A DNA stretch of 34,464 nucleotides from Thermovibrio sp. Its GTDB lineage: Bacteria > Aquificota > Aquificia > Desulfurobacteriales > Desulfurobacteriaceae. The stretch covers positions 1-34,464 of the forward strand of contig WFYG01000033.1 of assembly GCA_015490195.1 (NCBI GenBank). The letters are read 5' to 3'. Positions 1,022 through 25,639 of the stretch are shown here, in pieces. The notes beneath the pieces were generated by a model. That model had not been told where the DNA came from, ran no database searches, and was given only the letters and a program-made list of their open reading frames with translations. The position numbers and the translations under genes are program-made. Numbering within the stretch: position 1 is the stretch's first letter; each line of letters opens with the position of its first letter.

Positions 1022-1036
1022 ATTTTGGAGGTTGTA

Positions 1037-1360
1037 ATGGAAGAAAGAGTTATAAAAGCTGTAGTAGAAGAGATAGTGTTTGAATTGAAGGATCCTGATA
1101 AACCTAAAGAAATTCTTATGAGTATTAACGTAGATGAAAAATTAGAATTAACTAATATTAAAATAGATGATGGAAGTTTACTTTACGACCCAAATCAGGG
1201 TTTGATTCTACATTTAACTAAAGGTCCTCTTGTAGAAGCTTCAAATAAAATTGACTTGGAGGTTGGAGAAAGTTTAGAACTGTGCATAGAAATAAAAACT
1301 GATGAAAGCAATCAGAAGAGCTGGAAAATTAAAAGCATAATATTTAAAAGGTTAATCTAA
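1037..1360 (+). CDS. Hypothetical 107-residue protein, partner of the SIR2-like gene
   Basis: I do not recognise this protein. It is acidic and mostly short alternating hydrophobic stretches (VEEIVFELKD, LILHLTKG, LELCIEIKT, WKIKSIIFKR), which suggests a small beta-rich fold. It has no signal peptide or membrane segment and a single Cys. The ATG at 1037 is preferred over an in-frame TTG at 1025 because GGAGG at 1027-1031 sits five bases before the ATG. The stop codon shares its last A with the ATG of the SIR2-like gene (TAATG at 1358-1362), so the two are translationally coupled. Its AT-rich codon use matches that gene and not the glutamate synthase or trpB genes around it. Possible roles are regulator, inhibitor or target sensor of the SIR2-like protein; nothing in the sequence decides. 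Confidence 0.7.
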   Translation: MEERVIKAVVEEIVFELKDPDKPKEILMSINVDEKLELTNIKIDDGSLLYDPNQGLILHLTKGPLVEASNKIDLEVGESLELCIEIKTDESNQKSWKIKSIIFKRLI

Positions 1361-3033
1361 TGAATAATGTCCTGTTTTTTTTCGGGGCTGGTGCAACTGC
1401 GAGTTTGGGTTCTCCTGTTACCTATGTTCAGGAGAGATTTTTCCGTGAGCTAGTAAATATAGATAAATCCGTTGAAGAAAGATTGAAAGCTTTTAAAAAA
1501 GCATTTCCAAATTTGTTTGCTGATTCCCAGAGCTGGAAGGATTTTGTTGATGATATAAGAAGAACCCTCTGGCTTCTTTATGATGGAGATGGTTCACAAA
1601 AAGAGGCAGTAGCTGCCAGTAAAAGAGCTGAAGCTGAGCAGGAACTTATTAAAATTTTAAAATATCAGAAAGAAAAATACAAACTAAATCAATTTCTTAG
1701 AATTTATGTTTATCCGTGGTATGACTGGTTAGCGTTTGTATCTGTTGCAAGAACTCTATTTTCCCAGGGTGATAAAGTAACTCTTCAGGATGTTCTATCT
1801 GTTATAGTCAAAGCTTCTGTTGATGGCATATCACTTCCTACTCGTGAGCTTTTTCAGAAAGAAAAAAAGAGAAAGTTGCCTATATATGTAAATTACCCGT
1901 CTCGTTTAGAGGGAGCTTTAAGAGCTTATAAGCTACTCCTCTTTAAATTATTCAAGCATACTTTAAGAAATAGTGTCAAGCATAATAAGAAGCTGTGGGA
2001 GAAATACGAATCATTTACGAGCGAAATAATAAAAGTTTCTATTAAAAATTTTGAAGTTAAGGAAGCTGATATACGCTCTGCTCTTTTATCTTTATCTTGT
2101 GCTACGCTTAATTGGGATCCTGTCTTTCCGATGTTTTTTATTAAGAGCTATAAGGTTTTAAATGATAGTCTTATAAGAGAGAATAAGAGGATTTATCTAA
2201 GTTATGGCGCCCCTTTTGTTGTTAGGAAATTTTCGGGTAGCGATAGAGGTCTCTATATATTCGGTGAAGAATCTGTATCTCTGGTTAATTCAATGACGTT
2301 AGATAAAAGAAAATGTAGTTTAAAAATGAAAACTCTAAAATTTTTCGTTCCACATGGCTTAATGAATTTGAGAGTTTGCCCACGGTGCCAGAATGCTTTT
2401 ATTATACTGCCTGATGATGTAGGAAGACTTACATATGAAAAGTTTTTAGATATTTTCCTGTTGGATCCTGTTCCCGCAGAAATAGATGTTAAGCTAATGA
2501 ATGAAAGATATAGAGCTTTTTTTGATGAAAAGAATCCGTCTTTTATTAGTTGTCCTGTATGTGATACTCCAACCTATTTTCACGATACAGTGATGTTAAT
2601 ACAATCAGTTATAAAACCTAAAAATGCTCCGATTATGGAAAAGGTTGCTGTTGACTATTGGGTAACTTTTTCAAAAACTGATCATCTTATTTTCTTGGGT
2701 TACTCTTTTCCTGTTGATGATATCCCACATTTACTTTCTCTTTTGACAATGGGAGTTTCAGGGAATAATGAAAATGGTTTGAAAAAGAAATTTTCGGTTG
2801 TTTTGTTTAATAATAAAAATAGACATCTATATAAAGAAAGATGGTTAAGTGTGGATTACGTTTTATCCAAACTGGATAGGAAACGTGAAGAGGATGACAG
2901 AGATTATAAAACGATAGAAAACATACTAAAACTGGCGAAAAAGGAAAACATTAGGCTGAACTTTTTAGGTGTTCCAGACATTTTTGCTAAATTGCCTTTA
3001 GATGATATTATAACCTGGCGAAAGCCAAGTTAA
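1360..3033 (+). CDS. SIR2-like NAD+-binding protein with zinc ribbon, possible defence NADase
   Basis: A 557-residue soluble protein with the motif order of the SIR2 fold: a dinucleotide-binding GAGA at residues 9-12 near the N-terminus ([12 protein letters not shown]), an N-x-D pair in TLNWD (N251, D253), an HG motif (H332) followed at once by CPRC (C340, C343), a second CPVC (C398, C401), and GYSFPVDD at 447-454. In sirtuins the Asn, Asp and His are catalytic and the four Cys bind zinc. The GYSFPxxD block is typical of the SIR2-like domains found in bacterial defence proteins, which often degrade NAD+ on phage infection. Residues 20-240 are a long, mostly helical insert that I cannot assign. 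The start overlaps the small gene upstream. Codon use is AT-rich: bases 2041-2100 are 17/60 G+C against 33/60 at 3181-3240 in trpB, suggesting acquisition. Family membership is fairly sure; the defence role is inference. Confidence 0.75.
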
Positions 3034-3050
3034 CGCAAGGAGGCGAGGTC

Positions 3051-4259
3051 TTGTATAGCTACCCTGACAGCAGAGGTAAGTACGGAGAGTTTGGAGGGAA
3101 ATACGTTCCTGAAACTTTGATGGTGGCTCTTTCTGAGCTTGAGGAGAGCTACCTTAAGATAAAGAACGACCCGGAATTTAAGGAGGAGTTTGAGGAGCTC
3201 CTCAACAACTACGTTGGCCGCCCAACTCCTCTCCAGTTTGCAAAGGGGTTTTCTGAGTACCTCGGGAACGGCATAAAAGTTTACCTGAAGAGGGAGGACC
3301 TGAACCACACGGGAGCCCATAAGATTAACAACGCCTTAGGTCAGGCACTCCTTGCTAAGAGGATGGGAAAGAAGAGAATAATTGCAGAGACAGGTGCCGG
3401 TCAGCACGGCGTTGCAACTGCTACGGCCTGCGCCTTTTTAGGTCTGGAGTGCGTTGTCTACATGGGTGAAGAGGACGTTCGGAGGCAGGCACTAAACGTT
3501 TTCAGGATGGAGCTCCTCGGCGCCCGGGTAGAGGTTGTAAAGAGCGGAAGCAGAACTCTCAAAGACGCCGTTAATGAGGCAATAAGGGACTGGGTTACAA
3601 ACGTTAGAACTACCCACTACATAATCGGTTCAGTTGTTGGCCCTCACCCGTATCCGATGATAGTTAGGGATTTCCAGTCTGTTATAGGTGAGGAGACAAA
3701 GCGCCAGATTTTAGAGGCAGAAGGGCGCTACCCGGACATGATAGTTGCCTGCGTTGGCGGTGGAAGTAACGCAATGGGAATCTTCTACCCCTTTGTTGAG
3801 GATGAAGATGTTGAGCTTGTTGGCGTTGAAGCAGGTGGATACGGTTTAGATACAGACAAACACGCAGCGACATTGTGTAAGGGAAGAGTGGGAGTTTTCC
3901 ACGGTGCTAAATCCTACCTTCTCCAGAATGAAGATGGTCAGGTTACGCCAACTCACTCAGTCTCTGCAGGTCTTGACTATCCAGGGGTTGGCCCTGAGCA
4001 CTCACTCCTTAAGGAGATTGGAAGGGCAAAGTACGATGCTGTAACCGACGATGAAGCTCTTGAGGCCTTTCAGATTCTCTCAAGGACTGAGGGGATAATC
4101 CCCGCTTTAGAGAGCTCCCACGCTGTTGCCTGGGTGATAAAGAATAGGGAGAATTTGAAGGGAAAGCTAATAATCGTTAACCTTTCAGGTAGGGGTGATA
4201 AAGACGTTGCTCAGGTGAAAGAAATTTTAGAAGAGAAAAAGGAACTCCGTTTATGGTAG
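3051..4259 (+). CDS. trpB: Tryptophan synthase beta subunit
   Basis: A 402-residue TrpB of the standard TrpB1 type, a PLP enzyme that joins indole and serine to make tryptophan. The PLP-binding lysine is K91 in NHTGAHKIN, the catalytic glutamate is E113 in AETGAGQHG, and the phosphate-binding loop is GGGSN at 236-240. The N-terminal [15 protein letters not shown] region, typical of subunits that pair with TrpA, is present. The start is TTG at 3051, with AAGGAGG at 3037-3043 seven bases upstream. The gene begins 17 bases after the SIR2-like gene and its stop overlaps the next gene by seven bases. No other trp gene is in the window, so TrpA must be encoded elsewhere. Confidence 0.95.
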
Positions 4260-5473
4260 ACGAAATAACAGGATTTCCTTCAAGGAAGGCTTTTTTTAGG
4301 AGACTGTCTGAGATAAAAGAAGGGACTCCTGTTGTTATTATGCTACTGGATTTTGATGATTTCCGCTACATAAACTTTACCTATGGATACAAAATATCTG
4401 ATACTATTTTGAAATCAGCTGCTCAATATTTTAGCCGTATAGCAACTAAGTTCTTTAACAGGGTATTTCTTGCCAGAACAGGGGCTAACTGTTTTGCTTT
4501 TCTCATTTATGATGACATTCCCCTTTTAAGACTGGAAGAGATTTATAATAGATATCTTCACCTTCTTGAATTTAAACTAAAGTCTGATTTCGTCAGGATT
4601 ACCGCCAGTGCAGGTGTCAGTACGGGTCTTTCTGATTACGAGAAAGTTTTCTCCCAGGCAGAGAGTGCACTTTACTCTGCTAAAGAGTCTGGTAAGAACA
4701 CAATAGTTTTTTACCGTAAAGCCAGAGCCCGAGACATAGAGAAGTTTAAGCAGGTTCGTTTTAAGCTACTTGAGGCAGTAAGAAAGAAGAGTATCGTTCC
4801 GAACTTTCAGCCTATTGTTTCTTTGAGAACAGAAGAGATTTATGGTTACGAGGTTCTCTCCAGAATCTACTACGGAGATGAGGTTCTAAGAGGAGATTAC
4901 GTATTTTTGGTGGCAGATACTCTGGCGCTGACTCCTGAAATAGATAAAATACTATTTCTCCGTGCGATAGACTTTCTTGGAGACTATAAGTTCTTTTTTA
5001 ACCTATCAATGAAGTACTTCTTTCGGGAGCTCAATACCATTTTCCAGATAACAAAAAACAAGGGTTTAGATCTCAGTAATTTTATTTTTGAGATAACGGA
5101 GTCTCAAAAACTTATGGAAGAAGGAGTTGCTGTAAGTATATTTCGCCTTTTTAAAGAGCTTAATGCAGGTATAGCTATTGATGACTTTGGAGCAGGATAC
5201 TCTAACTTTATGTATTTGAAGAAATTTCCGGCAGATGTTCTGAAGATAGATGGAGCTTTTGTTAAAGATGCTAAATCGGACATTAAAGACCTGGCGATAA
5301 TAAAAGCTATAGTTGACGTTGCAAAGTCTTTCAGGTTGAGGACTCTGGCAGAGTTTATAGAAGATGAAGAAACGTACAGGTTGATGAAAAATGTTGGTGT
5401 TTCCCTTGGTCAGGGATACTTTATAGGAAAACCTGAGCCTGAACCCAAGAAGATAAAAATAAATATTTCCTGA
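4253..5473 (+). CDS. Cyclic-di-GMP phosphodiesterase (EAL) with degenerate GGDEF domain
   Basis: A 406-residue cytosolic protein with no membrane segments. Residues 1-155 form a GGDEF-like domain whose active site reads GANCF at 77-81, so it should not make c-di-GMP; it may bind GTP or serve as a regulatory domain. Residues about 165-395 are an EAL domain with the catalytic set apparently intact: E200 in the EVL motif, N250, E280, the DDFGAGYS loop (D310, D311), K331 in LKIDG, E367 and Q387 in [10 protein letters not shown]. Hydrolysis of c-di-GMP to pGpG is therefore likely. The ATG at 4253 overlaps the trpB stop by seven bases, implying co-translation with an amino-acid biosynthesis gene. 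Codon use is more AT-rich than trpB. Confidence 0.85.
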
Positions 5474-24670: not shown

Positions 24671-25639
24671 ATGCTTGAAGAGAAAGTAGAAGGTGCCGTT
24701 TTCGGAGGAGTGATAGGTGACGCCCTTGGAACTCTTGTTGAGGAGATGGACAGAGAGACTGTGAAGAGGGCTTACGGAGGACCGATACTTGACTTTAAGG
24801 AGCCTTCTCCTCTTTCCGTTTGCCCCCATTTAAAGAAGGGGCAGTACTCCCACGAGTCTCAGATTTTCCTTATGGCTTTAGAGGTTTACGCGGAGAAAGG
24901 CTACTTTGACGAGAACCTCTATATAAAGAAGCTGGTAGAGTGGGTAAAGGATGAGAAATCCCACAGGTACCCGGTAGGTTCCCACGTTAACGCTGCTCTC
25001 TCTTACGCCGCAGGCATTGAACCTGACGAGGCAAGGGTTAAGGCCTGCGACATAGACGGAGCTATTCCTGCTGCAGCTGCAGGTATATTCAGGTGGGATA
25101 GCAGTTACGACGCCTACTCAGAGGGGAGATACATAGCCTCAATTACCCACGGCGACGAGGCACTGGTTGACACGGCAGGAGTTCTGGCAGTTGCCGTCTC
25201 TGAGATAGTAGGCGGAAGGGTTCTCCTTGATACGCCGGAAGACAGGCTAGGCTTTCTAGAGGTTCTCAGAGAGTTCTCACAGACCGAGATGGTACGCTCC
25301 TACTTAGACCTTCTCTACCAGGCTCTGACAAAGGAGTCTGTTTCCCTTGATGACGCCATTCTCCTCCTTGGGAACGGCAGCTTTGCTCCAGAGGCTTTTT
25401 CCCTTGCTCTCTACATAGCTCTCTCTAACGGCAGATCTTACAGAAGGGCTGTTTTAACCGCCGTCAACTCCTACGGGGACTTTGGAGGAGATACGGACGC
25501 CATCGCTTTTATCGTGGGAGCTCTTACTGGAGGTTACCTTGGTATCTTGTCTATTCCGGAAGAGTGGTTAAAGTGCGTTGAAGGGGCAGAGTATATTAGA
25601 CTTCTTACAAAGAAGTTAATTGATAAAATCAAACAATAA
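24671..25639 (+). CDS. ADP-ribosylglycohydrolase (DraG/ARH) family protein
   Basis: A 322-residue all-helical protein. The N-terminal GAVFGGVIGDALGTLVE (8-24) and C-terminal GGDTDAIAFIVGALTGGYLG (272-291) are characteristic of the ARH/DraG family, which removes ADP-ribose from proteins or related ADP-ribosyl compounds using two Mg/Mn ions. The C-terminal metal residues D274 and D276 are kept. The first metal triad, normally TDDT, reads SHES at 60-63, so activity may be altered or lost. H160 in ITHGD fits the family TH motif. The ATG at 24671 follows AGGAGG. It is 25 bases upstream of the folding-factor gene and probably co-transcribed. Substrate unknown. Confidence 0.82.
   Translation: MLEEKVEGAVFGGVIGDALGTLVEEMDRETVKRAYGGPILDFKEPSPLSVCPHLKKGQYSHESQIFLMALEVYAEKGYFDENLYIKKLVEWVKDEKSHRYPVGSHVNAALSYAAGIEPDEARVKACDIDGAIPAAAAGIFRWDSSYDAYSEGRYIASITHGDEALVDTAGVLAVAVSEIVGGRVLLDTPEDRLGFLEVLREFSQTEMVRSYLDLLYQALTKESVSLDDAILLLGNGSFAPEAFSLALYIALSNGRSYRRAVLTAVNSYGDFGGDTDAIAFIVGALTGGYLGILSIPEEWLKCVEGAEYIRLLTKKLIDKIKQ

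Follow-up and report, generated by a model that had tools for sequence, protein, structure and literature searches.

The window (the whole 34,464-nucleotide stretch of Thermovibrio sp. DNA analysed) carries an insert at 1022-3050 on the plus strand, which runs from the stop codon of a glutamate-synthase-like (GXGXG-type) ORF, the 5' flank (glt, 227-1021), to the start codon of trpB, the 3' flank (3051-4259). Two genes occupy the insert and both are codirectional with the surrounding metabolic genes. The first (1037-1360, plus strand; ORF call with an ATG start) encodes an orphan, probably all-beta protein of 107 aa, hereafter the partner, and is preceded by a TGGAGG sequence (1028-1033, plus strand) that lies right after the glt stop codon and was read by eye as its ribosome binding site. 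The second (1360-3033, plus strand) encodes a 557-aa SIR2-like protein, a putative effector recognised by its ORF, its motifs, a structural model and both fold and profile matches. Base 1360 is common to the two ORFs (TAATG), and the one-base overlap, the two ORF lengths and the flanking genes are all present as the initial annotation had described them. A promoter for the pair was unsupported, with eight promoter-like sites in the region against 10.2 expected and none just upstream. The pair stands alone inside a metabolic operon, with no defence neighbourhood in the window. An ORF at 24671-25639 reads like an ADP-ribosylglycohydrolase; that the window also encodes a predicted NADase is probably coincidence.

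Overall G+C content is 33.0% in the module (29% in the partner gene, 34% in the SIR2 gene) against 47% in glt and 49% in trpB, GC3 is 22% and 26% in the two genes against 49% and 52% in the flanks, and all other non-overlapping stretches of module length in the window have at least 40.5% G+C. The local counts of 17/60 G+C at 2041-2100 and 33/60 at 3181-3240, quoted earlier for the same contrast, agree when checked by eye. A GGDEF-EAL-like gene at 4253-5473, which shares 7 bases with the 3' end of trpB, has a G+C content of 37%, and DNA similarity continues into it in most relatives, so low G+C alone is no mark of acquisition here.

The near relatives of the window genome are the Desulfurobacteriaceae (Aquificota), according to the public records of two loci (L005 and L009), and 20 of 22 genomes of this family, the window's own included, yielded a trpB gene. 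In all 15 other family genomes with both flanks readable, glt and trpB are adjacent and the pair is absent, the gap between them being 10-87 bp in 13 genomes and 191 and 385 bp in the other two. In one of the relatives, G001, the gap is 45 bp and the flanking DNA matches the window at 96% identity towards glt and 86% towards trpB. The vacant junction in 15 relatives, together with the deviant composition, identifies the pair as an acquired unit. The compact acquired unit proposed in the initial annotation is thereby borne out, and the opposite case that it had named, in which the pair would be present here throughout the relatives and match them in composition, is not what the relatives show. 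A search at the insert for an integrase-like ORF, a tRNA or flanking repeats found none. The 385-bp gap, in another genus (G006, locus L028), holds a different small insertion, and the glt-trpB junction may therefore accept inserts repeatedly.

Eight full-length SIR2 homologues were found, counting the window protein, to which the others are 24-39% identical. They occur in 4 of 61 relatives, in 6 of 136 Aquificota genomes and in two Nitrospirota among 396 genomes; the family is rare and patchy. Searches of IMG/VR with SIR2 profiles and the partner, and tblastn on phage and plasmid records, named no relative and no carrier. None of the eight members matches Pfam SIR2 or SIR2_2 at the curated cut-off, and no usable family assignment came directly from Pfam, NCBIfam, PADLOC, PHROGs or PDB sequences; matches to ING and histone H2B were discarded as chance. 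The residues that are invariant in all eight proteins nevertheless read as the elements of a SIR2 protein. They comprise G9 and G11 in an N-terminal glycine-rich nucleotide-binding motif (FFGAGA), the catalytic-type N251 in a TLNWD motif (residues 249-253, 2107-2121, plus strand), the catalytic-type H332 in an HG motif (2353-2358, plus strand), the two CxxC pairs of a zinc ribbon (C340, C343, C398 and C401; 2377-2562, plus strand) and a GYSFPxDD block (residues 447-454; 2698-2721, plus strand). N251 and H332 are the counterparts of DSR2 N133 and H171, which match N116 and H135 of yeast Hst2 and are needed for DSR2 NADase activity (PMC10981675).

Profile comparison (hhalign) with two shorter SIR2-like proteins gave a probability of 97.4% and an E-value of 9e-12, aligning the His, the zinc ribbon and the GYSFP half. 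One of these two proteins scores above the Pfam SIR2_2 cut-off, the other just below it; in sequence, the link to the SIR2 superfamily runs only through such intermediates, by a profile match on one side and Pfam on the other. The AlphaFold2 model of the SIR2 protein (pLDDT 79, pTM 0.85) contains a helical insert of ~220 aa that separates the first strand from the Rossmann core. Its top PDB fold match is the 390-aa chain R of 8yhx (E 4.4e-4, TM 0.37/0.49, 547 alignment columns), an entry whose title names trimeric HerA; classical sirtuins rank next in the fold list, with non-significant E-values, and for this reason chain R is read as the SIR2 subunit. A search among viral folds returned nothing significant. 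Sequence and model together place the 557-aa protein in the SIR2 superfamily, as an enzyme with a SIR2 fold and intact catalytic and GYSFP motifs. This agrees with the earlier description of a SIR2-like protein with a GYSFPxxD block, GYSFP itself lying at residues 447-451.

Proteins of the SIR2_2 type are said to be without a zinc module (PMC12700824), and the family described here departs from that description in its four invariant Cys. The zinc ribbon does not set the family apart, because a distant SIR2-like protein (L020) has Cys pairs that align with those of the window family; on these alignments, zinc-bearing SIR2-like proteins seem to form a wider group. Among shorter SIR2-like genes of Nitrospirota, that at L020:1375-2514 encodes the two Cys pairs, that at L021:769-1854 is without them and that at L022:1339-2559 is split over two frames.

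In 8 of 8 loci the SIR2 gene is immediately preceded, within ~35 bp and often with an overlap, by a small ORF, consistent with the earlier proposal of a dedicated small partner. The upstream ORFs are 107, 105, 152, 112, 122, 117, 139 and 127 aa long and, judged by eye, seven of the eight look beta-rich; the 127-aa ORF at L006 looks different and may be unrelated, so adjacency need not imply function. Pairwise alignments of the partners are at or near chance (Z at most 3.2) and an alignment of all of them has almost no invariant columns. The 107-aa protein has no match in Pfam, PADLOC or NCBIfam and nothing usable in PHROGs, in keeping with the initial annotation, which had recognised no known match either. 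Its model, built from a two-sequence alignment, is of very low confidence (pLDDT 38) and contains strands only. Weak partner-like matches in other Aquificota were discarded, being mostly short pieces of longer frames.

Evidence that partners are exchanged comes from one genome pair, G002 and G019, each from a different genus. An ungapped 1696-bp alignment of their SIR2 genes shows 90.7% DNA identity, and the encoded proteins are 90% identical, whereas the partners in the two genomes are unrelated in DNA and share 22% protein identity where alignable. Identical positions per 30 rise from 3-13 to 27-30 at the first SIR2 codons and fall to 6-11 past the SIR2 end. Within the gene, differences are sparse over the first 500 bp and increase towards the 3' end, a pattern that recombination would leave. 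Two routes are possible, in that the partner may have been replaced or SIR2 alone may have moved beside another partner; under either route, the same effector now adjoins a different small protein. A partner that is both hypervariable and exchanged somewhat favours a sensor or regulator over a plain immunity protein. Meanwhile, a dN/dS of ~0.12 between the two SIR2 genes shows that the effector is under purifying selection in this sister pair; this ratio, along with a full-length family that retains invariant catalytic and zinc-ligand positions, indicates that the gene pair is more than a chance arrangement.

Several homologues reside among defence genes. In G019 the order is a PLD-SNF2 helicase, a RelE-like protein, a type IIG restriction enzyme, the partner, SIR2 and an E2-like SEC-C protein directly after it (PADLOC E2, E 1.4e-40), followed by a VapC-like protein, a nucleotidyltransferase and a MazEF-like pair, where RelE, VapC, the nucleotidyltransferase and MazEF were assigned by reading the sequences. 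The G019 stretch with the pair has 34% G+C, and the helicase, the type IIG enzyme and the SIR2 pair lie in a large AT-rich island (L073:1-11600, contig C3). At L006 the pair is preceded by a type IIG enzyme (PADLOC E = 0) and a GIY-YIG/RAMA protein, and at L007 cas4 adjoins the SIR2 pair. The defence-unit reading of the initial annotation thus stands in part: several homologues are in defence islands, whereas the window pair itself is alone in a metabolic operon. Elsewhere, regular repeats with the translation ...FKRTSKELK... at L076:1-1330 (G016, contig C1, ~646,000-647,300) resemble a CRISPR array.

The window genome (G000) also carries a 99-codon in-frame remnant at the ribD-purB site of contig C19 (~107,430-107,740; L071:3435-3734). 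The remnant consists of the N-terminal part of a PLD-SNF2 helicase of the G019 type (85% over 48 aa) and the last 44 SIR2 residues, the latter of the G002/G019 type (68% to G019), and implies that this genome once held a second, now lost, member of the family. At the same site G002 has a whole SIR2 pair with a helicase fragment before it, G005 has unrelated ORFs and G001 has other ORFs next to purB, where its contig ends. With four genomes of genus g1 each different there (L071, L072, L079 and L080), ribD-purB looks like a hotspot or turnover site for acquired genes.

Several known systems resemble the pair in part. Sir2-HerA, including its divergent form PD-T7-2, likewise comprises two genes with a SIR2 effector and supplies the best fold match, 8yhx; however, the partner here is a 107-aa protein, the TM-score is only 0.37/0.49, and no HerA ATPase adjoins the window pair, where the neighbours are glt and trpB, or was recognised beside the homologues examined. 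DSR1 and DSR2 are SIR2 NADases that depend on an Asn and a His (PMC10981675), to which N251 and H332 correspond. Phage proteins are sensed by the DSR2 chain itself, while the window protein is nearly all SIR2 plus the helical insert, has a separate small partner, gives no PADLOC match to DSR2 and, at 557 aa in total with GYSFP at 447-451, is without a long C-terminal sensor region. ThsA of Thoeris is a SIR2-type NADase effector and in this resembles the window SIR2, but there is no TIR neighbour and no SLOG or macro domain match in the SIR2 protein. SPARSA (Aga_SIR2) was the sole PADLOC model to be matched at E 0.001, by the first 36 residues of one homologue and far below a useful score, and no Argonaute or APAZ gene or domain was found at the window locus. 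In Sofic-AS1, as here, a defence effector is encoded beside a short protein that may hold it in check, although Sofic is a Fic AMPylase rather than a SIR2 protein, AS1 lies downstream, and the abstract of that study mentions no partner exchange (PMC12249575).

On balance, we regard the pair as probably a mobile, NAD+-depleting abortive-infection module that combines a SIR2 effector with an exchangeable small sensor or regulator. The 557-aa protein would be a SIR2-family NADase in which N251 and H332 act as N133 and H171 do in DSR2, its Rossmann core binding NAD+ and its zinc ribbon stabilising the small subdomain. Translational coupling on a shared transcript would yield the 107-aa protein, which would bind the effector and keep it inactive or poised, and an encounter between this partner and a phage component would then trigger NAD+ depletion. 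Exchange of the partner beside a retained effector, as in relatives, would change what is sensed. We infer NADase activity, partner-SIR2 binding, sensing by the partner and phage protection.

The pair could instead be toxin and antitoxin, with SIR2 as a toxic NADase neutralised by the small protein and activated by loss of the antitoxin, not by direct sensing; we consider this reading less likely than the preferred one. The window pair has the classic layout of such systems, a small gene first and a larger toxin-like gene second with a one-base overlap; toxin-antitoxin genes occur near some homologues, and Sofic, a defence Fic protein, is neutralised by a comparable small neighbour (PMC12249575). 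A dedicated antitoxin should be constrained by its interface, which sits uneasily with partners that are 22% identical where alignable beside effectors that are 90% identical, yet a minimal interface could survive such divergence. Most predictions are common to the toxin-antitoxin and sensor readings, and the main divide between them is the toxicity of SIR2 alone. It is improbable that SIR2 is a stand-alone effector which senses phage through its helical insert, with the upstream ORFs as unrelated passengers or leader genes: the insert is large, the small ORFs have no clear mutual similarity and that at L006 looks different, but a tightly coupled small ORF is present in 8 of 8 loci and seven of these ORFs look beta-rich. 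Least credible is a role outside defence, as an acquired zinc sirtuin (a protein deacylase or ADP-ribosyltransferase) that uses the small protein as substrate or adaptor, for although the protein has a zinc ribbon with four invariant Cys and a catalytic His, and canonical sirtuins need the zinc module for deacetylation (PMC12700824), the family is patchy, mobile, AT-rich and found in defence islands, has no single conserved adaptor, finds its best fold match in a HerA-complex chain rather than a deacetylase, and shares its zinc ribbon with the L020 protein, which matches PADLOC SIR2 models.

SIR2 NADases are common bacterial immune effectors, and both SIR2 chemistry and the general strategy of the proposed module are already known. 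To our knowledge, how small partner proteins might tell such enzymes when to fire is poorly known. With the databases searched and in the literature covered, outside which lie most subscription papers and bioRxiv, no precedent was found for a SIR2 family without a model, for a hypervariable partner or for partner exchange, and no paper was found on such systems in the Aquificota, a deep-branching thermophilic phylum. The members may, as a more tentative extension of the abortive-infection reading that we hold at rather less than even chance, constitute an undescribed two-gene SIR2 immune family of thermophilic Aquificota and of Nitrospirota with a conserved NADase effector and a cassette-like sensor of 105-152 aa, the swap of which would reset the trigger. 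This SIR2 family falls below current defence-annotation models, and its thermophilic proteins may suit structural work. Furthermore, G002 and G019 offer a natural pair of near-identical effectors with different partners, in which a swap of a ~400-bp gene would test whether specificity is set by the partner.
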